The position numbers and the translations under genes were made by a program. This document shows positions 7,713 to 29,532 of a stretch of 41,202 bases of DNA, in pieces (position 1 is the first letter of the stretch; each line of letters begins with the position of its first letter). The DNA is from a virus, in the IMG/VR virus record IMGVR_UViG_3300030106_000725, positions 10,045 to 51,246 of that record. One strand, given 5' to 3'. The notes beneath the pieces are model-generated. The model searched no databases, was not told the origin of the DNA, and worked only from the letters and a program-made list of their open reading frames with translations.

Positions 7713-8021
7713 TTACTCTCCTGTATTTGGGTTAATCATTTTTGATTTTGTCATATCTACAACTCCACCCTCACTAGCCATCATAATTGACTGCTTTTGA
7801 ATATTAAAAGGATCTTTCTTAGGATCAGGTGTTATATCAAAAGTCTTCGGCTTTGCTTTTACCTTACTTGTTTTTGCTATTTTTTTCAAACGCTTTGTAA
7901 GAATGGCATCTTTCTTCTTTTGTTTGTCAACTGTCTTAAGGCCAGTTTTGCCACTGCCAACTGTCTGTATTACTTTGGCTATACCTTTAAGAGGATCTTT
8001 TGCTGGATTTTTTATTGCCAT
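7713..8021 (-). CDS. Small basic virion-module protein, 102 aa
   Basis: Lys-rich and helical in the first two thirds, ending in a short conserved-looking tail (MMASEGGVVDMTKSKMINPN). The EGGVVD patch resembles patches in the 615-aa and 284-aa proteins of this phage. The start overlaps the terminase stop (TGATG) with GGAG at good spacing. No domain recognised. Confidence 0.65.
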   Translation of the reverse strand: MAIKNPAKDPLKGIAKVIQTVGSGKTGLKTVDKQKKKDAILTKRLKKIAKTSKVKAKPKTFDITPDPKKDPFNIQKQSIMMASEGGVVDMTKSKMINPNTGE

Positions 8022-9490
8022 CAGTAATACTCCATCTTTCTTCTATAGCTTGGCTCAAACTCTTCATCATCTGGCGTGGTTATAAAACCACCTTGTCTGA
8101 ATCTTAGTATAGCCTGTGTCATCGAGTCTGCCAAGTCATCGTGATCACCATGTGGAAAACTCGCACATTCCTCTACAACTTCTTCTGCAAAATTAGCATC
8201 AGGTCTCCACACCATACCACTTTCAAAGACTGGTGCACAAGCGTTCATACGAGCAAATTTATCTGCACCTTTACTTGGTGTAAATGGCGTAACTGGTACA
8301 CCCATACGTCTTAACTCTTGTGTTAATGGCGTACCACTTGCTTTTTGCTCAATTAATATCATGTCAGGATCATATGCCTCGCACAACTCTTGTGCTTTAA
8401 GTTTAAGTTCTGGAAAATCCCATCTGCCTTTTTCGGCATCAAGCAAGATGATGGCATCTCCTTCTCCCTCAACGGGAGTAAAAATACCCCAAGTAGTAAT
8501 AGCACTATAATCAGAACGCTCATTTTTTGTAAACGCTGTGTCGTAGGATTGTATGATATACGAACAGGCAGGTGGGTTACTAGGATTCCAAACATTCCAC
8601 CACTCCCTTTTTATTATTGCACCCTCTTCAGCAGTAGGGTTTTGCATATATTGTGCGTTCCACTTACTAACGGGAATTGAGGCTTTAACGCCCTCTAACT
8701 CTTCTTTACTCCAATACTCTGGCCACAATACATTATTAGTGTCAGGAAAGATAGCAGGAAACTCCACGACATCCCACTTATCGGCACCCCCTTGTGCCTG
8801 TTTCTGTAATACTCTTGCAGTTAAATCCTTAATACCCCAACGTGTCATTACGATAATAATAGATCCACCCGGCTGTAGTCTTTGCCTTGGACCTGATGTG
8901 TACCACTCGTAAATACTATCAAGTGCAGTAGGACTTAACGCATCTTGTTCTGATACTGGATCATCAATAATTAACAAGTCGGCACCACGACCAGCTAATG
9001 CACCACCTACACCAACTGCGTAGTATTCGCCACCCTTGTTCGTTGACCATCTGCCAGATGCCTTCGCATCGGCAGCTAACTTAACCTCTGGAAATATATC
9101 TCTGAAGTCCTCGCTATCAATTAAGTTCTTAACCTTACGACCAAAACCAACGGCTAACTCTGCCGTGTGTGTAGCTTGTATAATCTTTAAATCAGGCTTT
9201 TTGCCCATTAACCAAGACGGAAATAAATAACTGGCAAACTCTGATTTAGTGTGTCTTGGCGGCATATTAACAATCAAACGCTTAATCTTGCCATCTGCTA
9301 CTTGTTGAAGTTTATCTGCATATGTCTTGTGATGCCTACCCTCTATGAAAGAAGGCCATATGCGTTTTACAAAATCCATGTACTTGTCTTGACTAAGCTT
9401 TTGCTTTTCAAGCATAGACAATCTCTCAAGCATGGGAGCTATCTTTGATAACTCATCATCACTTAAATATTCTGCAAAATCTAGGTTCAT
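8021..9490 (-). CDS. terL: Terminase large subunit (DNA packaging ATPase/nuclease)
   Basis: 489 aa, full length for the family. The N-terminal ATPase has a Walker A-type loop MPPRHTKS (about 76-83), Walker B DLLIIDDP (about 171-178) and the MTRW coupling motif (about 215). The C-terminal RNase H-like nuclease shows its acidic residues in SYDTAF, ILIEQKASG and HDDLADSMTQA. The enzyme cuts concatemeric DNA and pumps it through the portal. The start overlaps the upstream stop by ATGA. The small subunit is separated by about 5 kb (14812-15339). Confidence 0.97.
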   Translation of the reverse strand: MNLDFAEYLSDDELSKIAPMLERLSMLEKQKLSQDKYMDFVKRIWPSFIEGRHHKTYADKLQQVADGKIKRLIVNMPPRHTKSEFASYLFPSWLMGKKPDLKIIQATHTAELAVGFGRKVKNLIDSEDFRDIFPEVKLAADAKASGRWSTNKGGEYYAVGVGGALAGRGADLLIIDDPVSEQDALSPTALDSIYEWYTSGPRQRLQPGGSIIIVMTRWGIKDLTARVLQKQAQGGADKWDVVEFPAIFPDTNNVLWPEYWSKEELEGVKASIPVSKWNAQYMQNPTAEEGAIIKREWWNVWNPSNPPACSYIIQSYDTAFTKNERSDYSAITTWGIFTPVEGEGDAIILLDAEKGRWDFPELKLKAQELCEAYDPDMILIEQKASGTPLTQELRRMGVPVTPFTPSKGADKFARMNACAPVFESGMVWRPDANFAEEVVEECASFPHGDHDDLADSMTQAILRFRQGGFITTPDDEEFEPSYRRKMEYY

Positions 9491-11334
9491 GTTCCTGTGG
9501 CTAAGAAATCATCTACCGCTCTAATTAAACCACCCTCTGCAGCAGATACAACTGGCTTGGCAGATACACCAGTTAATAACTCAATTAACCTGTTTAACTG
9601 CCCACTGTCAAAAGTTACTGGCTCAATCTTAGATGTCGCTGGTGCAAAAGGACTTGCTACAACTGTTGGCGTCTCTACAGGTAGCGTAGCTATTGGCTCT
9701 GTGCCACCAATGATGTTCGGTGGTCTGTCGTCATCTTTCTTTTCTTCTTCCTTCGGAGGAATTATAGGTCTTCTGATTATAGGCTCTTGATTATCATCAC
9801 CACCACCAATCGGCTCATTTGGATCTACACCCTCAACAGTCCTTCCAAATTGATCTTTTAACGCCACAACCCTACCACTATCATTTCGTACAATTCTATC
9901 TTCAGGCACATCACCTTTGGCTAATTTAGCTGCCATTCTATCTCTGCTAAATCTTTCAATGCCATCAAAAAATGATGGTAAGCCCAATCCTTGAAAAAAT
10001 GCTGGGTCAGTGCCAGGGCCTGCTTTTCTTTGACCAACTGGCACATTACTTAATCTTTCAATGTCAGCTAAAGTTTGTGCTGGTAAAACACCTAACGTGT
10101 CCTCTCTAGGGTCGGTGTTATCGGCAATCGTTAATTTTGGGTCTCTTCTGCCACCTGTCATTCCAACATTTGGTATATCTTTTTTTGGTCCTTTGTAAGT
10201 ATCAGGATCAAAAATAGTATCAAATGTAGCTCTCTCAGATCTGAGTGCATCTAAATCAGGACCTACAAACGGATCACTTCTACCTGTGCCACCTGCTAAG
10301 TCATCTGAAAAAGTTATTGGACCTAATGCTCTACCTCTTTGTGCCATCAACTCTTGTTGATTTTGTTGTAACCCTCTTTCAACATCAGTTAGAGGTGGAG
10401 AGCCACCAACTAAATTAGCAATCGCTCTTGCTTGATCTTGTGCAACTGTGCTTCTAGTTGATCCAACATTCGGTAAGTTTGCACCTGGTAGTCCAGTTTG
10501 AAAGTTTTTTAGTCCAACTGCTGGATCGGGAACTATGTTTTCAAACAAATCTATACCTAATCTTGGATCGCCCTCGCCTAATTTAGTTACACCAACATCA
10601 CCTAATACATCTTCTACATTAAAAGCCTTGCGTGAAAAATCTACTGGATTTACATTTGACGCTTGTATGATGCTATTTACAACTTTCTCACCTAAACTCG
10701 TCTTGTCAAATTCTGCACTGTCTTTTTGAGCAGCGTCTAATGCACCTATAATGTCATTGTTTTTTGCTCGATCTTGTAAATCCGCTCTTAGCTCTTTTCT
10801 AGTCTTTTGTGGCACATTTAATCTATCAAAGGCTTCTTCAATTGATTTATTTGTAAAATTTATCTTTGGTAAAGTTCTAGCACTTAGATTTTGTCCAGAT
10901 GGCATGGTTAAACCCATTGGCGTGGCAGAACTTGGGTCATCTGCAAATACATCTGTAGCAGGACTATCAAAATTTGTTGAACCTTGATCATCTAAGGCTT
11001 GTTGAAAACTATCTTCATCGCCACCTGTTCCACCAAAGCCTCCACCCCCAACGCTAAAATCACCAGCTGATGCGAAATCCCCAAAATCATCAACCTCGCC
11101 TCCAGTAAACATCATTTGCACTGGTGGATTGAATATATCTATATTAGCTGCGGGTGCCATCATGGGATTGGCACCCACCATAGGTGCTAATGGAGGATTC
11201 ATGGCACCATTCATATTCCTTAAAAACTCGTTAAAAGTGCCACGACTGGCAGCTGTAGTATCTAATTTTACTGAAGGAGGTTGTGCAGGTGCCGCTGGTG
11301 TCGGCATGAAACCACCCATAGGTCCGTTTGCCAT
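9487..11334 (-). CDS. Large low-complexity virion-associated protein, 615 aa
   Basis: Pro/Ala/Met-rich at the start, then Gly/Asp-rich, with a long Asp/Pro-rich middle and a C-terminal block ending SAAEGGLIRAVDDFLATGT. No enzymatic motif is visible. Two Gly-Gly patches (MMFTGGEVDDF near the N-terminus and EGGLIRAVDDF at the C-terminus) resemble patches in other virion proteins here. I choose ATG 11334 rather than the adjacent TTG; GGAG lies seven bases upstream, inside a hairpin. Position just before the large terminase suggests a structural or packaging-linked role, unproven. Confidence 0.75.
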   Translation of the reverse strand: MANGPMGGFMPTPAAPAQPPSVKLDTTAASRGTFNEFLRNMNGAMNPPLAPMVGANPMMAPAANIDIFNPPVQMMFTGGEVDDFGDFASAGDFSVGGGGFGGTGGDEDSFQQALDDQGSTNFDSPATDVFADDPSSATPMGLTMPSGQNLSARTLPKINFTNKSIEEAFDRLNVPQKTRKELRADLQDRAKNNDIIGALDAAQKDSAEFDKTSLGEKVVNSIIQASNVNPVDFSRKAFNVEDVLGDVGVTKLGEGDPRLGIDLFENIVPDPAVGLKNFQTGLPGANLPNVGSTRSTVAQDQARAIANLVGGSPPLTDVERGLQQNQQELMAQRGRALGPITFSDDLAGGTGRSDPFVGPDLDALRSERATFDTIFDPDTYKGPKKDIPNVGMTGGRRDPKLTIADNTDPREDTLGVLPAQTLADIERLSNVPVGQRKAGPGTDPAFFQGLGLPSFFDGIERFSRDRMAAKLAKGDVPEDRIVRNDSGRVVALKDQFGRTVEGVDPNEPIGGGDDNQEPIIRRPIIPPKEEEKKDDDRPPNIIGGTEPIATLPVETPTVVASPFAPATSKIEPVTFDSGQLNRLIELLTGVSAKPVVSAAEGGLIRAVDDFLATGT

Positions 11335-11335
11335 C

Positions 11336-11367
11336 AAAAATCTCCAAATTTAACGTCTTTTGGAGAT
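11336..11367 (-). promoter_or_regulatory. Hairpin overlapping the ribosome site of the 615-aa gene; also terminator-like
   Basis: On the minus strand ATCTCCAAA and TTTGGAGAT form a nine-base-pair stem with a ten-base loop, followed by TTTTTG. The right arm contains the GGAG ribosome site of the gene starting at 11334. It could end transcription of the regulator operon or hide the ribosome site of the packaging operon, or both. Confidence 0.65.
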
Positions 11368-11376
11368 AGTATCTTA

Positions 11377-11784
11377 CTAAGTGGCTTTTTGCAATAGCAT
11401 TGTCATCTCTCTATTGCTCTGATCCAGTAATCTCGTTACCCAAATCTCATCTTGACGCTTCTCTGCATCGCCAATCGTGTGATCTATCGCATTACAAAGC
11501 TTCCAAATGCGTTGTTCTTCGTGTTTTGTTAAAGGATTTTTATTCTGATCGTAATTTACTACCTCTTCATTGCCCTTTTTTGGCGTTTTGGCCTCGCTTA
11601 AGTACAAAACAGCGTACTTGACAGACAATGGTATGCGATAATGGTCAGTTTCGTAGCATCTGTACCCTCTTTCGCTCATGCCTAGCTTCTTTGCCATGTC
11701 TATTTGGCTAAGACTAAGCCCTTTTCGGTGCTCTTTAAGCTTATCTCCAGTCCAATCACTAAAACTTTTGTCATTTTTCTTCAT
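11377..11784 (-). CDS. XRE-type helix-turn-helix regulator, 135 aa
   Basis: Residues about 13-50 form a Cro/CI-type domain: GDKLKEHRKGLSLSQIDMAK, then KLGMSERGYRCYETDHYRIP, with the expected Gln, Ala and aromatic-Glu positions. The C-terminal half (about 75-135) is charged and helical, perhaps for dimerisation. It is translated after the 81-aa gene with a 14-base overlap and AGAGGAAAAA upstream. The pair is driven by a promoter containing the 17-bp operator found at other early promoters, so it is the first candidate for the repressor. Binding itself is an inference. Confidence 0.8.
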   Translation of the reverse strand: MKKNDKSFSDWTGDKLKEHRKGLSLSQIDMAKKLGMSERGYRCYETDHYRIPLSVKYAVLYLSEAKTPKKGNEEVVNYDQNKNPLTKHEEQRIWKLCNAIDHTIGDAEKRQDEIWVTRLLDQSNREMTMLLQKAT

Positions 11785-12016
11785 TTTTTTCCTCTAATAC
11801 TCCAAATTCTATTAAATCCTCAATGAAATCATCATCAGAACCAAATCTTACTGGATTTCCACTGTAATCTGAGACCAACGAGGCATAAGTACGCCTAAGA
11901 TCTTCCCTTGTTCTAAAAGCCATTTGTGATTTTTTTGTGATCTGGTCAATCATCTGTGCTGGGTCGCCATGCACTTCAAACTTACCACCATCATATTTCA
12001 TGGTATATATCTTCAT
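11771..12016 (-). CDS. 81-aa protein encoded first in the regulator operon
   Basis: Short mixed alpha/beta protein: MKIYTMKYDGGKFEVHGDP at the start, a helical middle (RTREDLRRTYASLVSDYSGN) and an acidic C-terminus. No known domain recognised. The ATG at 12016 coincides with the predicted transcription start of a TTGACC-17-TATAAT promoter, so the mRNA would have no leader. An internal ATG at 12001 is the alternative start. It may be a partner or anti-repressor of the XRE protein, which is speculation. Confidence 0.65.
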   Translation of the reverse strand: MKIYTMKYDGGKFEVHGDPAQMIDQITKKSQMAFRTREDLRRTYASLVSDYSGNPVRFGSDDDFIEDLIEFGVLEEKNEEK

Positions 12017-12051
12017 AACATGATTATAGGTTTTCAGTGCCTAAAGGTCAA
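12016..12051 (-). promoter_or_regulatory. Promoter P12.0 with operator; leaderless start
   Basis: Minus-strand -35 TTGACC (12046-12051), 17-base spacer, -10 TATAAT (12023-12028). The plus-strand operator reads TAGGTTTTCAGTGCCTA (12027-12043) and overlaps the last two -10 bases. Upstream is an A/T-rich tract like an UP element. Six bases separate the -10 from A12016, the A of the start codon. Confidence 0.8.
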
Positions 12052-12206
12052 GAAATTTTTTTATAAAATTTTTTTTGGCTGCCGTTTTCAAAACACGGGG
12101 GGCTGTTTGAGGTGAAGTTAGTGCAAGGTGCGTACTATTTACAAAATATAAAAAAAGGGGGCGTATATGGTACGCCCCCACCGATCCGAATCTGTAGATT
12201 TACAAA
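12052..12206. other. Intergenic region with terminator and G-rich tract
   Basis: This gap holds the amidoligase terminator (listed separately), an imperfect CCGT/ACGG inverted repeat near 12083-12099 with a run of six G, and the A/T-rich upstream part of P12.0. No credible gene seen. Confidence 0.6.
12150..12179 (-). terminator. Rho-independent terminator after the amidoligase gene
   Basis: Perfect nine-base-pair stem GGGGGCGTA / TACGCCCCC with a five-base loop. On the minus strand it is followed by seven U residues. It lies 28 bases after the amidoligase stop. Confidence 0.92.
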
Positions 12207-13322
12207 TTATCTTGTAAATCTATTCTGCAACCATTCCTTTAGATTATCTCTAACATTAGACCAAATACAATCGCTATTGTTATTTAATTGCATTGTACCA
12301 TTTGAGACTCTCTCGATCTCTGTGGGAATCTTGTATCCATTAAGATCGTACATTCCATTTGATGAACCATTTAAATGACCATAAAATTCCTGATTTAATG
12401 TGATCACACATTGAGTACAACCAACCTTCCTTCTAATTGTATTGATTGTGCGTCTCACAGATCTTGCATCGTTAATACCACATTGACTCATAATTTCTTG
12501 AGTCGTTGCACCATTAACAGATTGACACATTTCAAAAACTTTCCACAATTTAGAATAAGGAGGCATCGTGTTCCTTAATTCTTCTGTGTATCTTGTACCT
12601 TGATCAACTAAATTGAATCTTTGGTGATGTGAATAATCAACAAGAGTCACGATCCACTCAACAAAGTTTTTAAGTTTAACATTGTTAAATGTACCTTGAT
12701 GTTGTCTAAACTCGATTGTGAGTTTACCTCCACCATTTTCTTCAAGATGTGAAATGTTTATAGCATTAAATTTGCCTCCACAAACATTCTGCAATTGTCT
12801 TAAGTTTGTACAATTCTCGATGCGAGTAACTCTATCTGTCATGTTTCTACAATACCTTGAGTCTCTTCTACTAGGAGCAAGAAAAGAATTTATAATCAAT
12901 TGATGCTTGGCATATCTAAAACAAACATCTTTAATGACCTCGAATTGAATCGCATCGTTTGAGTCTTGAAAGTATTTGTTTTGTCTAAACTTAGCAATTG
13001 ATTTAGTATTAAATTCTTCTGCATCCATTGTAATAGGTTTTAAACCAACATGAACATGGTGACCACATGATTTAGTCACTCGACCTCCAAGCCTAATAAT
13101 AATATCATTAACCTCGCCTGAAATTTGCCATGTGGATTCTGCTTTAAAACTTAATGGAGGAAATACTACCTCGCCCCCATTAGGTAACGAGCCGTCTCTA
13201 ATTACTCTTAAATAATCTAAATGTGGATAGTTTGCGAGAATCTCATTCCTTAAAGTTTCTGGACTCAAATTATCAAATTCTCTTTCAAATCCTAAAGCTC
13301 TGTCTGTAGTGATATTAGTCAT
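12207..13322 (-). CDS. Amidoligase-family enzyme (COOH-NH2 ligase, glutamine-synthetase fold) with C-terminal helix-turn-helix
   Basis: 371 aa. Hallmarks of the Amidoligase_2 group appear in order: GFEREF (Gly11, Glu13, Glu15), RDGSLPNGGEVVFPPL (about 42-57), CGHHVHVGL (about 86-94), APSRRDSRYCR (about 148-158) and TIEFRQHQGTFNN (about 203-215). These are predicted to bind ATP, metal and a carboxylate and to form an amide bond, perhaps on a peptide or protein. Residues about 255-300 add a segment resembling a winged helix (TTQEIMSQCGINDARSVRRT). The promoter at 13.4 kb carries the shared operator, and AAGGA precedes the ATG. The cyclotransferase-like gene at 15909 is a possible functional partner. 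Confidence 0.85.
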   Translation of the reverse strand: MTNITTDRALGFEREFDNLSPETLRNEILANYPHLDYLRVIRDGSLPNGGEVVFPPLSFKAESTWQISGEVNDIIIRLGGRVTKSCGHHVHVGLKPITMDAEEFNTKSIAKFRQNKYFQDSNDAIQFEVIKDVCFRYAKHQLIINSFLAPSRRDSRYCRNMTDRVTRIENCTNLRQLQNVCGGKFNAINISHLEENGGGKLTIEFRQHQGTFNNVKLKNFVEWIVTLVDYSHHQRFNLVDQGTRYTEELRNTMPPYSKLWKVFEMCQSVNGATTQEIMSQCGINDARSVRRTINTIRRKVGCTQCVITLNQEFYGHLNGSSNGMYDLNGYKIPTEIERVSNGTMQLNNNSDCIWSNVRDNLKEWLQNRFTR

Positions 13323-13372
13323 AATATTTTTCCTTATGTTGTTAAAATGTTTGTTTGTAACGAATCAAGTAT

Positions 13373-13408
13373 ACTAAATTTTATAGGCATTGTATACCTT
13401 AAAGTAAT
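13373..13408 (-). promoter_or_regulatory. Promoter P13.4 with operator, upstream of the amidoligase
   Basis: -10 TATAAA (13380-13385) is good; the -35 (ATTACT, 13403-13408) is poor. The plus-strand operator TAGGCATTGTATACCTT (13384-13400) sits exactly where the other sites sit relative to the -10. The poor -35 suggests an activated or weak promoter. The leader is about 50 bases. Confidence 0.6.
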
Positions 13409-13464
13409 AAATGTTCGTTTATTTTTAAGCAGCTTGCTTTTATGTTTTTGGCCAATGTTCGCTC

Positions 13465-13485
13465 AAAAAAAACCTGGAGCCAGGT
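13465..13485 (-). terminator. Terminator-like hairpin, minus strand
   Basis: Minus-strand ACCTG-GCTC-CAGGT stem followed by about eight U. The stem is short but the U-tract is strong. It would stop transcripts from upstream before they enter P13.4. Confidence 0.55.
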
Positions 13486-13631
13486 AGGCACGGCTAATGT
13501 AAAGATAAGCCCGAACACCGAATCCGAAGACCGACACCGAAGACCGAGGGCTATCATACCGAACAATAGTTCTTTGCGTACCTAGCTCGGCTAGGTGTCT
13601 CCTGGTAGTTCCCGGGTGGTAGAGCGAACAA

Positions 13632-13655
13632 TCGCAGATTTCTGCGACTTTTTTT
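13632..13655 (+). terminator. Terminator-like hairpin, plus strand
   Basis: TCGCAG-ATTT-CTGCGA stem, one C, then seven T on the plus strand. No plus-strand gene precedes it, so it may end an unrecognised antisense or small RNA, or may be part of the structured region. Confidence 0.45.
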
Positions 13656-13672
13656 GGCCGACACACCAGGTG

Positions 13673-13715
13673 CCCGGGAAGCGTGAGCGAACAATGGTTC
13701 GCTTTACGCCCCGGG
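13673..13715. repeat. Long GC-rich stem-loop
   Basis: Outer arms CCCGGG/CCCGGG, middle arms GCGT/ACGC and inner arms GCGAAC/GTTCGC around an AATG loop, with small bulges. The inner element GCGAAC-AATn-GTTCGC recurs at 14570-14585. Confidence 0.7.
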
Positions 13716-13731
13716 AGCTGAAAGGCCGAAC

Positions 13732-13757
13732 AAAAAAGCCAGGGTTTCCCCTGGCTT
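13732..13757 (-). terminator. Rho-independent terminator, minus strand
   Basis: Nine-base-pair stem AAGCCAGGG / CCCTGGCTT with a four-base loop, followed by about six U on the minus strand. It ends the transcript of the 107-aa gene starting at P14.5. Confidence 0.9.
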
Positions 13758-13860
13758 CGTTGCGAACAATCCCCCTTTCTAAGTGATTAATAATAAGTAA
13801 AAGAAAAATCCGAACATTGTGATCGCTCCGAGAGCATTAATTAGAAACATCCAAAACATT

Positions 13861-14184
13861 TTAAATGTACCTCTCTTTTAGAGCATAGCCGTCGCCATAC
13901 AGAACACTCGCTAAAGTGTAAACCATATGGAAACCCATATCCATACCACAACCACCAACACCAACGGAATTGGTTTTAGCTTTGTAAGTCCATTCAAGAA
14001 CCTTGGCAACATGGTAAGAATAATGATTAATGTTACTATCTTTAATAGAGTGGCAACTGATGTGCCTATACATCCCACTTCTTGAAACTTGTCTGATTAC
14101 TAAGTAGACAGTAGACCCCTTTGGGAAAGCGTCTTTTAATTGTTGTGTTGAATACTCAACAGTATCAAATTTTAAATCATCCAT
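13861..14184 (-). CDS. Conserved phage protein, 107 aa, function unknown
   Basis: Contains two blocks I recognise from many phage hypothetical proteins: VYLVIRQVSRSGMYRHIS (about 26-43) and a C-terminal VGGCGMDMGFHMVYTLASVL plus YGDGYAL. Probably a small alpha/beta fold; the GCGMDMGFH block looks like a catalytic or metal-binding turn, but no activity is established. AAAGGAGAG precedes the ATG. It lies 300 bases downstream of P14.5 and before a strong terminator, so it is a single-gene unit. Confidence 0.8.
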   Translation of the reverse strand: MDDLKFDTVEYSTQQLKDAFPKGSTVYLVIRQVSRSGMYRHISCHSIKDSNINHYSYHVAKVLEWTYKAKTNSVGVGGCGMDMGFHMVYTLASVLYGDGYALKERYI

Positions 14185-14488
14185 AATGGACTCTCCTTTT
14201 GTTTGTTTGTTTGTTTATGAGAGCTGATTTTTTAAGTCCCCAGCTCTCGTTTAAGACTGTGGTTATTAACCCACTTAAATGATTGAGGAAGTTGCTATTT
14301 TAGATCTGTGAACCCCCATCCCAAAACTTCGATCTCATGTTGCGGGTTTTTTGTTCCTTTGAAACAATCGCTAAATAACCAAAGGCCTTAGTATTATCTC
14401 ATTCAGAAGCTTACCCTTGTTATATTAACTCAAGTGGTGCTTGTTCTTCCTGAACACATCCACGCACTTAGCGAATCAATATATTATA
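14185..14488 (-). other. Long 5' leader of the 107-aa gene
   Basis: About 300 bases of predicted transcribed leader. It contains an eight-base-pair stem GAGAGCTG / CAGCTCTC (14219-14248), five AAAC repeats next to the ribosome site, and two tiny frames (9 and 12 codons, the latter preceded by AAGGA). No known riboswitch consensus recognised. Confidence 0.5.
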
Positions 14489-14517
14489 GTTATAGGCAAT
14501 TATTGCCTACTAGTCAA
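14482..14517 (-). promoter_or_regulatory. Promoter P14.5 with a perfect palindromic operator
   Basis: -35 TTGACT (14512-14517), 17-base spacer, -10 TATAAC (14489-14494). The operator TAGGCAATTATTGCCTA (14493-14509) is a perfect inverted repeat about a central T and the most symmetrical member of the set. It nearly fills the spacer, so a bound protein would exclude RNA polymerase. Confidence 0.85.
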
Positions 14518-14526
14518 CAACTAATA

Positions 14527-14806
14527 TTATTTTTTTCTATTCGTGCTCGGCCAAATGTTGCCTGGTGCGTAAGCGAACAATAGTTCGCAACGCCACCTAG
14601 TCGCCTGGAAGACCAGCGAACAATTATTCGTTTTGTAGGTATGCGAAGAGTTCAAAGGTGTGCGAAAAAAACGAACAGAGGAGGGAGGAACCTGGACACC
14701 GAGTAAGTCCGACACCGAACAAGTCCGAGTCCGAAGTCCGAATCCGAGTCCGACACACCGACTGGTCAAGTCCGAAGCCCAACGCCTCACCGAACACGCC
14801 AAGTGT
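14527..14806. repeat. GC-rich CCGA-repeat spacer downstream of the small terminase gene
   Basis: It contains repeated AAGTCCGA and GTCCGA units between about 14705 and 14775, the inverted element GCGAAC-AATA-GTTCGC (14570-14585) and a related GCGAACAATTATTCG copy (about 14605). The motif CCGACACCGAA is shared with the 13.5-kb spacer. The single open frame here reads as low-complexity Ser/Arg-rich peptide and is not accepted as a gene. A terminase recognition site is one possible role. Confidence 0.55.
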
Positions 14807-14833
14807 TAGCGTTATTTTGTGGGCTTAACGCTA
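14807..14833. repeat. Inverted repeat across the terS stop codon
   Basis: Perfect eight-base arms TAGCGTTA / TAACGCTA with an 11-base loop. No U-tract follows, so it is more likely an RNA-stabilising hairpin or protein site than a simple terminator. Confidence 0.6.
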
Positions 14834-15339
14834 TTATGTTCTATCGTCTGTGGGTCTTTATGGGTCTTTGTGGCTACTTTCATGCGTTTCTGTGCAAGGT
14901 TTTGAAATTCCTGTAGTTTTTCTAATATTTGCTCTCTTGTCATAGTGTCTGCCTGTTCATGTAGTACATGAGCCTTATTTACAAGCAATCCTGTCGCTTT
15001 TAATCTGAGTTCTTCAGCACGAATAGCTTCACCGAACTTACCACTTTCCCACGCTTCATTTCTAATCTTAAGCAGATCACGAACTGACTTCTCAATAGTT
15101 ACACCGAACCTAGACCGAGCCTCCTCACGCATTTCCTGATATCGTTCTTGCACCACTGGGTTACGCAACAAGCGAACAGCATCAACGCCTGGGTTTGCAT
15201 ATCCCGCAGATCGTGCTGCAGAAGTTTGTGTCATGTCTTTGTGCATGAAGTTATCCAAAAAAGCCTGTTGTTTATCTGTTAATCTTTTTTGACCAGATAG
15301 CCTTTGCTCCCTAGATAGATCTTCTCCTACTCTTGGCAT
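14812..15339 (-). CDS. terS: Terminase small subunit
   Basis: 175 aa. Residues about 20-75 match the Terminase_2 pattern: LTDKQQAFLDNFMHKDMTQT, then SAARSAGYANPGVDAVRLLR and NPVVQERYQEM, a helix-turn-helix that recognises the packaging site. The remainder is helical (oligomerisation) with a basic tail. AAGGAG lies five bases before the ATG. It is separated from the large subunit by about 5 kb and flanked on both sides by repeat-rich DNA, plausible sites for its binding. Confidence 0.9.
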   Translation of the reverse strand: MPRVGEDLSREQRLSGQKRLTDKQQAFLDNFMHKDMTQTSAARSAGYANPGVDAVRLLRNPVVQERYQEMREEARSRFGVTIEKSVRDLLKIRNEAWESGKFGEAIRAEELRLKATGLLVNKAHVLHEQADTMTREQILEKLQEFQNLAQKRMKVATKTHKDPQTIEHNSVKPTK

Positions 15340-15591
15340 AAGTTCTCCTTTTTTGCTAACAATATATATAGGGTATGGGGTGGGTTACTTACCACCCCCC
15401 TATACCCCCTATAGGGGGGGAAGTTCGGTAAGTTGGTAAGTACTAATAAAATCAATGACTTACAAGCTAAAATTAACTTGCAATGATAAAAAGTAAGTTC
15501 GGTAAGTTGATTTAATTTATCTAATATTATCAATGACTTATAACTTCCCTCTGTTTTTACTTACCAAGTAAGTTGGTAAGTGGTAAGTAAA
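15340..15591. repeat. Iteron-like repeats and G/C hairpin upstream of terS
   Basis: AAGTTCGGTAAGTTG occurs identically at 15421-15435 and 15495-15509. GTAAGTTGGTAAGT occurs at 15428-15441 and 15568-15581. ATCAATGACTTA occurs at 15451-15462 and 15529-15540. TTACTTACCA occurs at 15385-15394 and 15557-15566. The spacing is about 75 bases. Near the gene is an imperfect hairpin (15366-15413) and the palindrome CCCCCTATAGGGGG (15405-15418). No gene is supported here. Candidate origin or packaging site. Confidence 0.65.
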
Positions 15592-15909
15592 TTACTCATA
15601 AATCACCAGTACATTATGGAAATCTGTACGTTTAAACCACGAGCCATTATCGGTACATTCATAGCCTAAATCACGCATTGCTCCCCATGTTTGAACCCAA
15701 CAATAATGACAATCATCATCGCCTAATCCTGCACGTTTATAACAATTCTGTTTATGATTAATATCTAGTTTAATTTTTTGTGTAAGACCCATCTCTACTG
15801 CACAACCAAGACAGATTGTTCGTTTATTGACAATCAGTTCTCGGTTACGCAGAATATTCTCGTTGCACTTTGTGCAACGAACTCTAGGAAAGTTTTTAAC
15901 TTTAGCCAT
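15592..15909 (-). CDS. Zinc-ribbon protein, 105 aa
   Basis: An N-terminal ribbon has CTKC (about 12-15) and CLGC (about 33-36), and a second Cys group lies in CYKRAGLGDDDCHYCW (about 56-71). Basic N-terminus, beta-type C-terminus. Probably binds zinc and perhaps nucleic acid or a protein. It starts at the TAATG overlap with the cyclotransferase-like gene, so the two are translationally coupled. Specific function unknown. Confidence 0.75.
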   Translation of the reverse strand: MAKVKNFPRVRCTKCNENILRNRELIVNKRTICLGCAVEMGLTQKIKLDINHKQNCYKRAGLGDDDCHYCWVQTWGAMRDLGYECTDNGSWFKRTDFHNVLVIYE

Positions 15910-16364
15910 TATGACCCCACTTTCCTTGCTAGATTAACTTTGAGTTCTTGAGCTTCTTCAGCTTCACGAACTGCCCAGCACAAATAGTCTTTATCCATAC
16001 CAAAGTCCTCATAACCTTGTGCAATACAATTGTAATAATGAGCTGGTGGAACACCAAACCCTTTTCTACGCATAACGTAGAACATACACTTTCCTCTTGC
16101 ACCTGGAATATCAAGGTCTTTGACATAAATCTTTTTATACAAATATGGGAAACCCTCGAATCTATCTAAGGCCTTCTCACACTCATCTGTAATCTTCCAT
16201 AAGCCAATAGGCACTTCTGCACCCTTGCACTCAATGATGTCTGCAACACCATTGAATACAAGCTTATAGTCCTTAAGCATAAAACTAATCATAGGCTTTG
16301 CTTGTGGACAACGCACTTCCATGTTGGACATATTTAGATTCGCACCATATGCACCATATAACAT
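15909..16364 (-). CDS. Gamma-glutamylcyclotransferase-like (AIG2/GGCT) protein
   Basis: 151 aa from ATG 16364 (TAATG overlap, GGAGAGG upstream). It opens MLYGAYGANLN, the YGxNL substrate loop of the family, and later has ALDRFEGFPYLYKK, which supplies the expected catalytic Glu and the P-x-x-Y-x-K motif. The barrel strands are completed by KCMFYVMRR and PPAHYYNCIAQGYEDFG. Family members release 5-oxoproline from gamma-glutamyl amines; in phages they have been noted with amidoligases, and one is encoded 2.6 kb away. The substrate is unknown. Confidence 0.85.
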   Translation of the reverse strand: MLYGAYGANLNMSNMEVRCPQAKPMISFMLKDYKLVFNGVADIIECKGAEVPIGLWKITDECEKALDRFEGFPYLYKKIYVKDLDIPGARGKCMFYVMRRKGFGVPPAHYYNCIAQGYEDFGMDKDYLCWAVREAEEAQELKVNLARKVGS

Positions 16365-16702
16365 TATTGCCTCTCCACAAATTCTTCTGTGATACCTTTG
16401 CAAATGTTAATAGCAATAGTGTTGGCATCTTTAAGAGTCATCTTGCCACTTTGCAATTGATTATGTAAATCAGTAATACCCTCATGCAATTCACCAACAA
16501 GATTTTCTTCTTGATGTTTGTTATACTGGTGTTGTGCATAAAAAGTTCTAATATTACTAATATTATTATAATGCTTTTTTAACTCTTCTTTGATTGATTG
16601 ATCACTAGTGTTAGCAATCTCTTGGTCTAACCAGTTTTCCATATCACCTAATTTAATATCTTCGGCTTGATCTGAAAACATACTAAGTTTCTTCATATTC
16701 AT
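16364..16702 (-). CDS. Helical phage protein, 112 aa, first gene of the P16.75 operon
   Basis: I place the start at ATG 16702 (AAAAGGAG, eight-base spacing) rather than at an upstream ATG that would lie inside the promoter. The product is largely helical and Gln/Asn/His-rich with no Cys cluster or membrane segment. No family recognised. It is followed directly by the cyclotransferase-like gene (TAATG) and may work with it. Confidence 0.65.
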   Translation of the reverse strand: MNMKKLSMFSDQAEDIKLGDMENWLDQEIANTSDQSIKEELKKHYNNISNIRTFYAQHQYNKHQEENLVGELHEGITDLHNQLQSGKMTLKDANTIAINICKGITEEFVERQ

Positions 16703-16731
16703 AACATACTCTCCTTTTGTTAAAAATGTTA

Positions 16732-16767
16732 TACTATATATATAAGCACTCATTACCTATATGTCAA
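16732..16767 (-). promoter_or_regulatory. Promoter P16.75 with operator
   Basis: -35 TTGACA (16762-16767), 17-base spacer, -10 TATATA (16739-16744). Plus-strand operator TAAGCACTCATTACCTA (16743-16759). The -35 lies in the last codons of the methyltransferase gene. It drives the 112-aa, cyclotransferase-like and zinc-ribbon genes and possibly terS. Confidence 0.85.
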
Positions 16768-18004
16768 ACAATTTTAACTGTGGTTTTATATTTTTTATTC
16801 TGGCTTTGGCGATTTCGTAGTATTCTTCTTCTTTTTCTATGCCAATGAACCTAAAATCTTCTTCTCTTGCACCCATGCCAGTTGATCCACTACCCATAAA
16901 CGGATCGAGAACAAGCCCTCCTTTAGGCGTTACCAGGCGAACAAGGTATCTCATAAGCTCCACTGGTTTAACTGTTGGGTGTGTGTTCGCTTTTATCTCA
17001 CCACCTAGTCCAGATTTACGCTCATCTTTTGATGTCTTTGCACAATAAAAATACCGAGAAGCGTTACCATGATCTCCGTAAGCTGGCATGAATTGTTCGG
17101 TGTCATTGAGTTCACCAGACCAAATCCCCTTGTGTGTTCGTTGTCTACTGACCTCTGTGCTGACAGTCTTTGGAAATATATCTTGTACTTGTTCGCTTCC
17201 GTCGTGCATTACATTACTAGGCCAACGACCTCTTGGGTCTGCATCTGCGTACTCCGATCCCTCCGACTTCATACCACTATTATCATCAGTCCATACGCCA
17301 TCTGTTGACCTAGCTTGGCGAACAACTTTTTTTCGTTTAGCGTTAGATGTCTGACCAAATGATAGCTTGTCCACACCGATTGCTTTTTTACTTTGTTCGC
17401 CTTGATCACGGAAGTCTGGCATTGTGTTTGGGTGCTTTACCTCGCCTTGTATCCGAGACTCGTCAATGTTTATTGCACCAGTCCGATGCTTCATCACGTT
17501 GTCCGACACCGACTTCTCCGACAAGGGCTTTCTTGCTAACACCATTGGTTCATGTGCTGGCTTTAAGGCAGTACCCCAACCATCACCGACTTTGTGGCTT
17601 TTAGGAAACCCGCTACCATACAACCAAATACATTGGTCTCTGATTTCAAACCCAGCATCTTCTATGGCACATGCCATTCTATGGTATGTTCGTGATCCAC
17701 TAAACGCTATCAAATGACCACCTGGTTTTAACAACTCATAACATTTACGCCATGTGTCTGCTTGGAAAGCTATATCGCCACCATCCCACTCCTTACCCAT
17801 AAAACCTTTTGACGCTCTAGCAAAAGCTCCGTCTGTACCGAACTGAGCTGGTGCTGAATCTTCTTTACTGAACCTTTTGACTATTGATGTAAGGTGATAC
17901 GGAGGATCAGTTACCACGCTATCAACCGAACATTTATCTATTGTATCCATGACTTCTAAACAGTCGCCATTATATACTGTGCTACCTTCTATTATTACTT
18001 CCAT
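16757..18004 (-). CDS. DNA amino-methyltransferase (N6-adenine or N4-cytosine), beta-class order
   Basis: 415 aa. The catalytic motif TDPPYHLTS (motif IV) is at about 37-45 and the AdoMet-binding motif VLDPFMGSGSTGMGA (motif I) near 365-379, an order typical of N6_N4_Mtase enzymes such as CcrM-like proteins. HPTVKPVELMRYLV precedes motif I, as expected. The long middle (about 150-330) is the probable target-recognition region. It would methylate phage DNA and protect it from host restriction. Base composition is visibly more GC-rich than neighbours, suggesting recent acquisition. No cognate nuclease seen. Confidence 0.92.
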   Translation of the reverse strand: MEVIIEGSTVYNGDCLEVMDTIDKCSVDSVVTDPPYHLTSIVKRFSKEDSAPAQFGTDGAFARASKGFMGKEWDGGDIAFQADTWRKCYELLKPGGHLIAFSGSRTYHRMACAIEDAGFEIRDQCIWLYGSGFPKSHKVGDGWGTALKPAHEPMVLARKPLSEKSVSDNVMKHRTGAINIDESRIQGEVKHPNTMPDFRDQGEQSKKAIGVDKLSFGQTSNAKRKKVVRQARSTDGVWTDDNSGMKSEGSEYADADPRGRWPSNVMHDGSEQVQDIFPKTVSTEVSRQRTHKGIWSGELNDTEQFMPAYGDHGNASRYFYCAKTSKDERKSGLGGEIKANTHPTVKPVELMRYLVRLVTPKGGLVLDPFMGSGSTGMGAREEDFRFIGIEKEEEYYEIAKARIKNIKPQLKLFDI

Positions 18005-18308
18005 TTAATGTCCTATAAACCATTTCTATTCCGAGCTTTTCTGCCACTTCAATGCCCTTTTTCATGCCATCTGATATACCTTTATCTATATAAACTGCCA
18101 TAAGATCTGCGTGTTTATACCAGTTAAAAGCTCTTTCCATGCCCATTGTTCTTTGTTTTTTGATCGCATCATCTAAGACTTGCGTATAAAGTAAATGCGA
18201 GGCAAATGGTGACTCGCCTCGCATTAATGAATCAAACATACACTTTTTAGCGTATGCTAAGTTTTGTTTTACCTTACCTTTATAAGGCGATTCTATGATT
18301 ACCAACAT
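17982..18308 (-). CDS. DUF7768-type protein, nucleoside deoxyribosyltransferase-like fold
   Basis: 108 aa. VIIESPYKGKVKQNLAYAKK at the start, then RGESPFASHLLYTQVLDD and YIDKGISDGMKKGIEVAEKL. These match a small phage and bacterial family with a predicted nucleoside 2-deoxyribosyltransferase-like Rossmann fold. The SPY...N..YA and G-S-GM blocks would line a nucleotide pocket. It overlaps the methyltransferase by 23 bases. Activity is unproven; nucleotide metabolism or base modification is plausible from context. Confidence 0.8.
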   Translation of the reverse strand: MLVIIESPYKGKVKQNLAYAKKCMFDSLMRGESPFASHLLYTQVLDDAIKKQRTMGMERAFNWYKHADLMAVYIDKGISDGMKKGIEVAEKLGIEMVYRTLNGSNNRR

Positions 18309-20224: not shown

Positions 20225-20260
20225 AATTGCTAGTATAGGATAGTTATTATAGGAAGTCAA
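20225..20260 (-). promoter_or_regulatory. Promoter of the 434-aa gene
   Basis: -35 TTGACT (20255-20260), 17-base spacer, -10 TATACT (20232-20237). The shared TAGGCA operator is absent; the spacer instead has two TATAGGA-like direct repeats seen on the plus strand. A second TTGACA with a short spacer lies just upstream. Confidence 0.75.
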
Positions 20261-20275
20261 TGCCAATGTCAAGAC

Positions 20276-20400: not shown

Positions 20401-20647
20401 AATCATCTAAAATACTTCTACCAAACACGTGAGTGCTTGTTTTGTACACTTTGCCATATTCTATTTCTTTTAGTGCACGGGGGTCATCTTCAAAGAGCTG
20501 TTCATCTGGACAATGTTGTGATCCAATATTAATGTTCTTTTTTTCTCTAAACAATAGTCTACGTTTCTTGCATCTATTACATAAAGTTTCTTTTTTATCT
20601 CGGACAAATCTATCACAATCAGCACATCTAGCGTATTTCTCTATCAT
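20393..20647 (-). CDS. Small zinc-binding protein, 84 aa
   Basis: Start at ATG 20647 with AAGGAGG upstream. CADC (about 8-11) and CNRC (about 23-26) form a treble-clef or ribbon-like zinc site in a basic context (KKRRLLFREKK). The C-terminal half is acidic. It overlaps the end of the cytosine methyltransferase gene by 20 bases. It may bind nucleic acid or act as a small regulator; no named family. Confidence 0.75.
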   Translation of the reverse strand: MIEKYARCADCDRFVRDKKETLCNRCKKRRLLFREKKNINIGSQHCPDEQLFEDDPRALKEIEYGKVYKTSTHVFGRSILDDLG

Positions 20648-21848
20648 TTTCTGCCTCCTTGATTGCATAAAATATCCGAGCCACCACCTGTGGCACGATA
20701 CTATTCCCTAAACATCTAAGTCGGTGTACCCTATTTCGTACCCCATTAGCCACTCGACCCACGTTGGGTTCAGGCTCCCAGGTGACTGGTTTTCTTCTGA
20801 AGTCTGTTCCATTACACCCTTGTATACTTTCCTCGGAAGACTCATTCTTTGACGATTCTCTTTCCAATTCTCTATGCTTCCCGAGTCCTTGTAATCCCTT
20901 GCCGTTGGTGTAGGGAACATCTCCTTTTTCGGATAGTCCCATTTCTCCATTCTTGGTGGTCTTAGTGTTACTCCCAGCATCTGTTCTGCTTGTTGTTCGG
21001 TCATCTCCCCAGCTTCCACTTTTTTTCTGAATATCATTGTCTGACCCATTGACGCATGTCCGTACCCCTTTGTCGTCGGTGTAGGCCACATTATCACGCT
21101 GTCTGCTAGGTTCAGACTGTGAGATGTCTGCCCGTCCTTGCTCAAGCATCTGTTGTTCGCTGTTAGTTCCGCTTGCGGGTGTTCTATCTCTTGTGTTGTC
21201 GGTGTTGGCCATAAGGTCGAAGATATCTGTTTGTACAAACTCATTGTCTGTTCGTCTACTTGTTCCCTCAAGTTCGCTGGTTTTGTTCTGCCTTTGCGAT
21301 GACCCTCCATTAGTTTGGTTGTTCCCTCTTCTGAACGTGGAGGTAGATGATCCATCGTGTTCGGTGTAGCCCACAATCCAGCATCGCATTCGTCTATGTT
21401 TGGCATCGACGGCTGCAGCTGGAATAAGATATGGTATGGCTTTATACCCGATACTTTCCAGGTCAACGAGACTTCTTCTGAGACCCATTGGCATTGTAAC
21501 AAAACCCGACACATTTTCGCCAATGACCCATCTAGGCCGTATGTCTTCAATAATCCTAACCATTTCGTGCCAGAGATCTCTGTCGTCTTCGCTGCCTCTT
21601 TGAGAGCCTGCAACCGACCAAGGTTGACATGGGAATCCTCCAACAACGATGTCTGCGTCTTTGTATTCTTTTGCATCAAAACTCCTTATATCACTATATA
21701 TTGGTACATCGTGCCAATGTTTTCGCAAGACTTTTTGACAATAATCATCTCTTTCAACAAAAGCTATTGTCTCAAAGCCACCTACTATTTTTTCGGCAGC
21801 ATAGCTAAAACCACCTATGCCACTAAATAAATCTACTATTTTAAACAT
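20628..21848 (-). CDS. dcm: DNA (cytosine-5) methyltransferase
   Basis: 406 aa from ATG 21848, which overlaps the primase stop. Motif I DLFSGIGGF (6-14), motif IV GFPCQPWS with catalytic Cys74, motif VI ENV (111-113), motif VIII HRRMRCWIVG (151-160) and C-terminal motifs IX/X (PNVGRVANGVRNRVHRLRCL and GNSIVP, about 381-386). It methylates cytosine C5, probably to evade restriction. Residues about 165-350, where target recognition should lie, are strikingly Ser/Asn/Thr/Arg-rich and poor in hydrophobics, because the same DNA carries a second long frame. More GC-rich than its surroundings. Confidence 0.95.
   Translation of the reverse strand: MFKIVDLFSGIGGFSYAAEKIVGGFETIAFVERDDYCQKVLRKHWHDVPIYSDIRSFDAKEYKDADIVVGGFPCQPWSVAGSQRGSEDDRDLWHEMVRIIEDIRPRWVIGENVSGFVTMPMGLRRSLVDLESIGYKAIPYLIPAAAVDAKHRRMRCWIVGYTEHDGSSTSTFRRGNNQTNGGSSQRQNKTSELEGTSRRTDNEFVQTDIFDLMANTDNTRDRTPASGTNSEQQMLEQGRADISQSEPSRQRDNVAYTDDKGVRTCVNGSDNDIQKKSGSWGDDRTTSRTDAGSNTKTTKNGEMGLSEKGDVPYTNGKGLQGLGKHRELERESSKNESSEESIQGCNGTDFRRKPVTWEPEPNVGRVANGVRNRVHRLRCLGNSIVPQVVARIFYAIKEAENDREIR
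20708..21676 (-). CDS. Overlapping gene nested in the cytosine methyltransferase gene, 322 aa
   Basis: This frame (+1 relative to the methyltransferase) is open for 322 codons from ATG 21676, and AAGGAG lies five bases before that ATG. The peptide looks like an ordinary protein: LGRLQALKEAAKTTEISGTK near the start, then GLDGSLAKMCRVLL and SLTWKVSG. Four WPTPT-like repeats follow (WATPNT, WPTPTT, WPTPTT, FPTPTA), and the end is GSLNPTWVEWLMGYEIGYTD. I recall such WPTPTA...NPxWVEWLMGxPxGWT proteins as common in phages, often labelled methyltransferase or hypothetical. Translation is predicted, not shown; part of the conservation may be forced by the methyltransferase frame. Confidence 0.6.
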   Translation of the reverse strand: MQKNTKTQTSLLEDSHVNLGRLQALKEAAKTTEISGTKWLGLLKTYGLDGSLAKMCRVLLQCQWVSEEVSLTWKVSGIKPYHILFQLQPSMPNIDECDAGLWATPNTMDHLPPRSEEGTTKLMEGHRKGRTKPANLREQVDEQTMSLYKQISSTLWPTPTTQEIEHPQAELTANNRCLSKDGQTSHSLNLADSVIMWPTPTTKGYGHASMGQTMIFRKKVEAGEMTEQQAEQMLGVTLRPPRMEKWDYPKKEMFPTPTARDYKDSGSIENWKENRQRMSLPRKVYKGVMEQTSEENQSPGSLNPTWVEWLMGYEIGYTDLDV

Positions 21849-24012
21849 TATCCCTCGCAGTAGTTGCCTCGTATTCACCTCTGCTCATACTGCCATCTAT
21901 GGTGCCAAGCCACTTACGACCACCACTTGTGCTAAATGAATACTTTGCAATTCTGCCCTCTTGTATAAGCTCTCTTACTATTCCATCTATCATACGTTGT
22001 GTGCAGTTGTTAAGCACATTAGGTGCGTCTGTATCAGCAGACATACGTTGTAAGATGGCATCTGCACCAGACTGTTGGGTCATGGCTCTGCCTTCTCTTT
22101 CACAATCTGCAATCCAATTGTACAATGCAGTCTTTTTAATTTCTTTATTAGTGCCACTATGAAGCCTTGATATGTCATCACTCCTATCTAGTAACAAACC
22201 ACTAAACTCATCTCTTATAAAATGTCTAATATTTCTATTTGCAGGTCCGTTTGATTTAACAACTGCACCATCAAAACATTTATTTCTTTGATAATCTATG
22301 CCAAGGTCTTGGCAACGTCTTCTACCATTGGCTTCATCAACTTGCCACAACGCAAAAGCACAACGAACACCATCAACTAATGCAGACGTACCTCTGATCA
22401 TATTTCTTGCTTGTTCTGGTGTGCTAACAACTGTATCTTCTTTGATCTTTGTCATGTGATGACACATAATAACTGAAGCACCAGTTTCTGTGGCTATTTG
22501 TGCAAGTAAGCCAGTCAATGCCGCACCCGCCGCTGGATCTGCATTAACATCTGCGTGTACAAAAGATGCCAATGGATCAAAGACTATAAGTTTTAAGTTC
22601 TTCATTTGTAGTATTTGTTCGTAAAGTTTATCAAATTCATCGCTTGTTCTATAGCCATCATGTGTTTCTTGTAATATAGGAAACACGCCACCAACATTAG
22701 GCAAACTTACAATTCTCAATTCATGCTCATAGCTTGACCTTTGATTGTCTATGTCAAGCCTTTCTATTCTTCTGTGCATCTCTGCCTCATCATCTTCAGC
22801 AGTAAATATAATAGAATTACCAAACTCACTAATTGTGCCACCAAAAGATTCTGACATGGGTAAACCACTTGATACTTTCATGGCTAAGTCAAGTGTCATC
22901 ATACCTTTACCAGCATCTCCTGCGGCAGAAAAAATAATTGGCACAGCTAATGGAAGAGTGTTCGCTATCAAAAACTTCTGTACTGGTGCATCACCAACAA
23001 ATCTATTTATTAATAAACTATCATCAAGAAGATTAATATTCTTCTTAACTTGCTTCACATTTGTGTTAAGAAACTCATTTATGTTAAATTGTTCGGCTAC
23101 AGCGTCTACAACATCCCATCTTTCGGGCTTACCCCTTGGTGGTGTTAATGTAGTTACTGATTTTACACCAGCATTTAATGCAAGTTCTTGAACAAGCTCT
23201 GCTAGTTTGCGACCTGCATTATCATTATCAGGCCATATTATAAGTTCTTTGTCATGCAAGGGTGAAAAGTCAAATAGATTTGCAGACTTCTTAGATAACA
23301 TACCAGCACCACCCATTGTGCATGTGGCAGTATAACCAAGATCATTAAGTGCATCTGCACACTTTTCGCCCTCTACCCATATTATTTTCTCTGACGCAAC
23401 TATGTTCGGTATATTATAGAGTGGTCTAACATCTGGCATCTTTGGATAATTACTGCCACCAGTGAACTGCCTAAACTCTTTCTTAGGCTTACCATGACTA
23501 TCTAAAACAGGGTTGCCCTCATCATCCTTTGCGTTGTATCTGCGAACAAGACAAAGCAGTTCACCTTGTGCATTAAGATACTTATGTTCGCTATCATAAG
23601 GTGTGTTTAGATTTATCTGTTGTATGTTAGGGTCAACAATAGAACTTATTTTTTCAACTGGTCTTGGTGCATCATCATCTAAATAACTATCAAAAAATTC
23701 TTTAACTTCAGGCAACTTCATATTTCTGCCCTCCATCAATATTTTAACAATACCTCCAACTCCATCTGCACCATTAAAATCTTGACCTTTCATAAAGTAT
23801 GGTGATCTAGGGTTTATGTCTATTTTAAGAGATTTACCTGCCTCTCCACCAAGCGATCCAATAGTAAATTGATCACCTCTGACAACACCTTGTGGATAAG
23901 TATCTTTAAGTAAATCAATCTGAACATGTGCTGGAACTTTCTCACTAATTAACTCTACAAGCTCCCTTGCATCCATAGTCCTTTTACTATTGCCAAACTT
24001 TATAATGTTCAT
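21841..24012 (-). CDS. TOPRIM primase / RepA-like helicase fusion
   Basis: 723 aa from ATG 24012 (AAGGGG upstream); longer starts would run into the nuclease gene. The N-terminal part is primase-like, with a TOPRIM domain around 210-285: IIWVEGEKCADAL supplies the Glu and LIIWPDNDNAGRK the DxD. The C-terminal part is a RecA-fold AAA_25/RepA-type ATPase with Walker A FSAAGDAGKGMM, Walker B LKLIVFDPLASF and a sensor-like MCHHMTK. It would unwind the fork and prime synthesis. No phage polymerase is visible, so it probably recruits the host replisome. Confidence 0.88.
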   Translation of the reverse strand: MNIIKFGNSKRTMDARELVELISEKVPAHVQIDLLKDTYPQGVVRGDQFTIGSLGGEAGKSLKIDINPRSPYFMKGQDFNGADGVGGIVKILMEGRNMKLPEVKEFFDSYLDDDAPRPVEKISSIVDPNIQQINLNTPYDSEHKYLNAQGELLCLVRRYNAKDDEGNPVLDSHGKPKKEFRQFTGGSNYPKMPDVRPLYNIPNIVASEKIIWVEGEKCADALNDLGYTATCTMGGAGMLSKKSANLFDFSPLHDKELIIWPDNDNAGRKLAELVQELALNAGVKSVTTLTPPRGKPERWDVVDAVAEQFNINEFLNTNVKQVKKNINLLDDSLLINRFVGDAPVQKFLIANTLPLAVPIIFSAAGDAGKGMMTLDLAMKVSSGLPMSESFGGTISEFGNSIIFTAEDDEAEMHRRIERLDIDNQRSSYEHELRIVSLPNVGGVFPILQETHDGYRTSDEFDKLYEQILQMKNLKLIVFDPLASFVHADVNADPAAGAALTGLLAQIATETGASVIMCHHMTKIKEDTVVSTPEQARNMIRGTSALVDGVRCAFALWQVDEANGRRRCQDLGIDYQRNKCFDGAVVKSNGPANRNIRHFIRDEFSGLLLDRSDDISRLHSGTNKEIKKTALYNWIADCEREGRAMTQQSGADAILQRMSADTDAPNVLNNCTQRMIDGIVRELIQEGRIAKYSFSTSGGRKWLGTIDGSMSRGEYEATTARDNV

Positions 24013-29459: not shown

Positions 29460-29496
29460 AATTATTCCTTTCTCTTTATATAAAATAGACACTAGA

Positions 29497-29532
29497 TACC
29501 TATAACATAGGCACACATAACCTAGTTGTCAA
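29497..29532 (-). promoter_or_regulatory. Promoter P29.5 with operator, recombination operon
   Basis: -35 TTGACA (29527-29532), 17-base spacer, -10 TATGTT (29504-29509). Plus-strand operator TAGGCACACATAACCTA (29508-29524) lies in the same register as at the other promoters. The leader is about 38 bases. Confidence 0.85.

Follow-up and report, generated by a model that had tools for sequence, protein, structure and literature searches.

Linked amidoligase and gamma-glutamylcyclotransferase genes in a marine phage lineage: a predicted pair for making and removing an amide-linked group

Why should a marine tailed phage carry a carboxylate-amine ligase and a gamma-glutamylcyclotransferase (GGCT) on either side of its small terminase gene? 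The question is raised by a 41,202-nucleotide stretch of DNA, the window, which covers bases 10045-51246 of the 51,246-base virus record IMGVR_UViG_3300030106_000725. An earlier reading made from the letters alone (the sequence-only reading) had proposed that one enzyme attaches amide-linked residues and the other trims them. We found that the two genes are almost always retained together in this lineage. We put at roughly one in two the probability that they work as a pair, one making and the other removing an amide-linked amino-acid group on an envelope target, as a reduced peptidoglycan-modification module under the phage's own regulator. The central features are listed here.

12207-13322, minus strand: Amidoligase_2 (carboxylate-amine ligase, predicted glutamine-synthetase fold), 371 amino acids; PF12224, AlphaFold (AF2) model, invariant residues
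14812-15339, minus strand: TerS, terminase small subunit, between the amidoligase and GGCT genes in this clade; PF03592, 4.8e-9
15909-16364, minus strand: GGCT (GGCT/AIG2 fold), 151 amino acids, predicted catalytic Glu70; PF06094/PF13772, phrog_2520, AF2 model
8021-9490, minus strand: TerL, terminase large subunit, used as lineage marker; phrog_38, 3.6e-115

Families, folds and active sites of the two enzymes

The ligase matched PF12224, a family that Pfam itself annotates as 'putative', with E=1.5e-12 and 48.4 bits against a curated cut-off of 22, and all 43 of 43 ligase homologues matched it too. PHROGs likewise returned amidoligase (2.4e-11). The motifs named by the sequence-only reading were found where it had placed them, GFEREF (residues 11-16), CGHHVHVG and TIEFRQHQGT in the ligase and YGANL and LDRFEGFP in the GGCT. 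When the ligase sequence profile was run against solved structures, the matches were at chance level only, and a fold search was therefore needed. The best structural matches of the AF2 model (mean predicted local distance difference test score, pLDDT, 91.3) were glutamine synthetases, with Z up to 12.5 and 3.2-3.5 Å over about 206 residues, and included YbdK (Z 11.7); Foldseek additionally returned the Pup ligase PafA and Dop. The ligase resembles glutamine synthetase and YbdK in fold (Z 11.7-12.5) and in the order of its metal/ATP motifs, ExE...E...HxH...ExR, but it is only 8-15% identical to them, lacks the N-terminal domain of glutamine synthetase and has an extra winged-helix-like module. 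Six residues (E13, E15, H89, H91, E204 and R206) were invariant across the 43 homologues at identities down to 16%. In glutamine synthetase the residues that bind metal and ATP follow one another in the same order, ExE ... HxH ... ExR, from which we infer that the invariant residues are their equivalents. Most cellular relatives of the ligase align only as far as residue ~230-240.

The GGCT exceeded the curated cut-offs of both PF06094 (E=4.6e-6) and PF13772 (E=4.1e-6) and matched phrog_2520, gamma-glutamyl cyclotransferase, at 4.4e-26; NCBIfam gave no match for either enzyme. The GGCT profile found human GGCT at E=7.5e-17, and E70 aligned with its catalytic glutamate, the position at which the mutant chain 3cry departs from the wild-type Glu. 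A Foldseek search with the AF2 model (pLDDT 94.0) returned human GGCT (2.8e-10) and gamma-glutamylamine cyclotransferase (1.5e-4). The phage protein shares with these enzymes the fold, the YGxN binding loop and the catalytic Glu, although its identity to human GGCT is 26% in the structural alignment. E70 and the YGxN loop were invariant in 39 GGCT sequences. Families, folds and active sites thus uphold the enzyme identities given in the sequence-only reading: the glutamine-synthetase fold is confidently predicted with its metal/ATP residues intact, and the loss of active-site residues that would have counted against that reading was seen in none of the 43 ligase and 39 GGCT homologues.

A ligase of the glutamine-synthetase fold uses ATP to activate a carboxylate and then joins it to an amine, and GGCT frees 5-oxoproline. 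An attach-then-trim scheme would therefore be chemically consistent with both predicted enzymes. The same activities could instead serve small gamma-glutamyl metabolites: the ligase would make gamma-glutamyl amines or peptides resembling gamma-glutamylputrescine or glutathione, which the GGCT would recycle, altering the amine, glutamate or thiol pool of the host or shielding a reactive amine, as the BtrJ/BtrG steps do in butirosin synthesis. The fold matches of the ligase to YbdK and the glutamine synthetase/GmaS class, makers of gamma-glutamyl compounds, and those of the GGCT to human GGCT and gamma-glutamylamine cyclotransferase agree with this. However, a shared fold does not give the substrate, and no further pathway enzyme was linked to the pair in the neighbourhoods examined. 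We regard this alternative as unlikely.

Linkage and regulation of the two genes

Searches were seeded separately with the amidoligase, GGCT and TerL, and only loci with a long enough flank were scored; raw counts were set aside because most single-gene contigs end near the expected partner. Among related phage contigs, 29 amidoligase loci had 4.5 kb or more of 5' flank, and a GGCT was present in 28 of them; conversely, an amidoligase was found in 29 of 31 flanked GGCT loci. For loci seeded with TerL, 8.9 kb or more of 5' flank was required; of 14 such loci, 13 had both genes and the remaining one had neither. The co-occurrence on which the sequence-only reading depended was thus borne out. 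Pairwise distances of the two proteins were correlated (r=0.81, uncorrected for shared phage ancestry).

Four arrangements were found. In this clade the order is GGCT - TerS - amidoligase; elsewhere the two genes are direct neighbours, with either the GGCT or the amidoligase as the 5' one, or the GGCT lies on the opposite strand. On the amidoligase tree they require at least five switches of gene order. The amidoligase-first order occurred in 41 contigs, often with touching open reading frames (ORFs), and its loci examined gave no match to the TerL of this phage. In these contigs, which belong to a different phage group (L196, L200, L213 and others), ParB-like genes (30/41) and PAPS-reductase-like genes (23/41), assigned by eye, were observed near the pair. 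The pair also occurs in unrelated phages, namely Terrisporobacter phage TPDSL_ph1, a Dorea phage and Bacillus phage 035JT001. Cellular genomes differ: a GGCT lay within ~6 kb in only 4 of the 80 amidoligase loci, so the pairing is not general to the amidoligase family.

Could the two be independent accessory genes, brought together merely by their common place in a variable TerS-TerL region? In this clade they are parted by TerS, a 107-amino-acid gene and long non-coding stretches, and both are missing from more distant TerL relatives such as Pelagibacter phage HTVC027P. Against such independence, reciprocal retention is at least 90% and absence is joint; moreover, the genes are directly adjacent in other phage groups, and the pairing outlasts several rearrangements. 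This explanation is already disfavoured, and we consider it highly improbable.

The sequence-only reading had also stated that both promoters carry the same operator. We found a 19-bp palindrome, approximately ATAGGYANTNANTRCCTAT, at eight sites in the window, all of them intergenic.

13383-13401, minus strand: operator-like palindrome, amidoligase promoter
16742-16760, minus strand: operator-like palindrome, promoter of the operon of the 112-amino-acid, GGCT and zinc-ribbon genes
12026-12044, no strand assigned: palindrome, promoter of the operon of an 81-amino-acid protein and a helix-turn-helix (HTH) protein
14492-14510, no strand assigned: palindrome, intergenic, 5' of the 107-amino-acid gene
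2450-2468, 20249-20267, 29485-29503 and 29507-29525: further palindrome sites
11377-11784, minus strand: HTH protein, 135 amino acids, candidate regulator; HTH_3, E=2.8e-4, below the cut-off, and weakly phage_RstR-like

The palindrome also precedes a 434-amino-acid gene and, in two copies, an operon near 29.5 kb. The first scoring matrix was seeded with sites from relatives, and a second was trained on seven of the eight sites; the best eight matches of the scan were all intergenic, against an intergenic fraction of 10% in the window. At the amidoligase promoter the palindrome is retained in relatives whose ligases are as low as 36% identical (L028, L030). A simple search with AGGTATNNNATGCCT at three mismatches gave 39 matches against 34.9 expected, no better than chance, so that the case for the operator depends on the matrix scan together with the intergenic placement and the conservation in relatives. 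Another candidate operator, AACATTTT(T)AACA, was dropped, as just two copies lie at promoters. The shared operator therefore stands, whereas co-regulation specific to the pair does not: the eight sites are a phage-wide regulon. The 135-amino-acid HTH protein is the natural candidate for the reader of the palindrome, and it may regulate itself through the site in the promoter of its own operon.

Proposed reaction and its target

The functional-pair reading builds on the family membership and predicted folds of the enzymes, on catalytic residues that never vary, and on the genetic linkage and the shared operator. In the reaction we infer, the amidoligase would activate a carboxylate with ATP as an acyl phosphate and would then join it to an amine; this carboxylate would most likely be the gamma-carboxyl of glutamate or that of a peptide. 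Given the genetic linkage, the simplest reading is that the GGCT acts on the ligase product. A gamma-glutamyl group with a free alpha-amine would be cyclised off as 5-oxoproline, and this step would edit, limit or reverse the modification, amounting to a reversible gamma-glutamyl capping of an amine. The likeliest target would be part of the host cell envelope, either a peptide or an amine, and an envelope altered during infection could exclude other phages.

An amidoligase with a GGCT has already been published as a 'putative peptidoglycan modification module' in phiEco32, RIO-1 and LUZ24-like phages (PMC5498523, PMC11945000), which, as cited in these two papers, traces back to Iyer et al. 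2009 and Hardies et al. 2013. Cell-wall modification and superinfection exclusion have been proposed for such modules by prediction (PMC5498523, PMC11945000, PMC11253131, PMC10580990). As in the phiEco32/RIO-1/PSA-HP1/LUZ24-like module, the two genes here lie together among non-structural genes, as they do in marine and other podoviruses. In contrast, the phiEco32/RIO-1-type module is larger: a second COOH-NH2 ligase, an ATP-grasp enzyme and either a glutamine amidotransferase or an aminohydrolase belong to it as well. The ligase of the present phage also differs in carrying a winged-helix-like module. Firmicutes phages and prophages (Terrisporobacter TPDSL_ph1, Clostridium clostridioforme LM41 and Bacillus phage 035JT001) likewise have one or more amidoligase genes shortly 5' of a GGCT; unlike in these loci, the GGCT here is 5' of the ligase, TerS lies between them and the ligase is longer. 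A search for a second COOH-NH2 ligase (PF14395) gave no match in the record, but its control also gave none. A system of this kind has already been predicted; what is new is the minimal and strongly conserved form, with a winged-helix-like module in the ligase.

Several observations weigh against the envelope module. No class-II glutamine amidotransferase (PF13522) was found in the whole 51-kb record, which may be incomplete, while the controls matched, and no ATP-grasp enzyme had a Pfam match among the ORFs scanned, which did not include every small ORF, so the richer module seems to be absent here. A GGCT occurs without an amidoligase in two contigs (L237, L244), and the annotated phages include two, phiEco32 and a Porphyromonas phage, in which the amidoligase comes with no profile-detectable GGCT. 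GGCT requires a free alpha-amine on the glutamyl group, and D-Glu inside peptidoglycan has none, so an ordinary stem peptide would be a poor GGCT substrate. Finally, the winged-helix-like module of the ligase suggests a nucleic-acid link, of which an envelope model has no need.

Ligase residues ~256-325: winged-helix-like, DUF3489-related module

The module lies in the C-terminal third of the ligase. DUF3489 was detected in 16 of the 43 ligase homologues, with a best E of 6.5e-7, although the score fell below the gathering score in each individual protein checked. Almost all members of the TerL lineage have residues in the alignment columns of the module; in the amidoligase-first class these columns are incompletely occupied. 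Its basic helix is conserved, with R290 and R297 nearly invariant. The structural alignment to glutamine synthetase extends to residue 371, and in the predicted model the module may therefore be an insertion ahead of the last core elements rather than a tail.

The winged helix could bring the ligase to DNA or RNA, where an amine of a hypermodified base or of a DNA-bound protein would receive an amino acid, with the GGCT as editor. In addition to the conserved module, the phage has two DNA methyltransferases and a nucleoside deoxyribosyltransferase-like protein.

16757-18004 and 20628-21878: DNA methyltransferases, of the N4/N6 type and the C5 type
17982-18308: DUF7768 nucleoside deoxyribosyltransferase-like protein

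However, the ORFs scanned included no recognisable genes for amine-bearing hypermodification. Winged helices can serve protein contacts or autoregulation as well, and the C-terminal part is shorter in many paired homologues of the amidoligase-first class. A nucleic-acid target appears quite unlikely to us. A more specific version would be a distinct two-gene system: the winged-helix ligase would place a removable gamma-glutamyl or other amino-acid tag on a nucleic acid, or on a protein bound to one, and the cyclotransferase would be its dedicated eraser. We consider this very unlikely.

Surroundings and significance of the pair

The sequence-only reading had named two products of the GGCT operon as possible partners of the enzymes.

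15592-15909, minus strand: zinc-ribbon protein, 105 amino acids; zf-dskA_traR, E=0.004, below the cut-off
16364-16702, minus strand: 112-amino-acid protein of the GGCT operon (117-amino-acid ORF, 16364-16717)

The neighbourhoods do not support this. The 112-amino-acid gene is present in a few close relatives only and missing from most, and where the GGCT moves, the zinc-ribbon gene remains beside TerS.

The source is a marine tailed phage with podovirus-like tail genes. Megablast against the phage collection found no close DNA relative. The nearest large terminases, ~60% identical, are those of the seawater phage 023Pt_psg01 and Pelagibacter phage HTVC027P, and many IMG/VR contigs carry one that is 75-100% identical. 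About 5.3 kb of accessory genes part TerS from TerL (8021-15339). Because HTVC027P and related phages also hold unrelated genes between the two, this interval looks like a cargo region. Immediately upstream of TerS, a GGTAAGT repeat cluster (15385-15592) holds 7 of the window's 13 copies within 261 bp, accompanied by direct repeats of 15-25 nucleotides, and could be a TerS-binding or packaging start site. The non-coding stretches at 13400-13860 and 14500-14812 are of unusual length and rich in CGAAC(A), with 16 CGAAC words, several of which form CGAACAATNGTTCG-like palindromes; CGAACA occurs 56 times on both strands of the window. No tRNAs were found in the phage.

Amidoligase/GGCT modules are widespread in phages, and the papers cited above only predict their substrate. 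The winged-helix-like module of the ligase is an unexplained clue to the target. In this lineage the system is cut down to two genes that are almost always kept together, so it offers a simple candidate for work in vitro.

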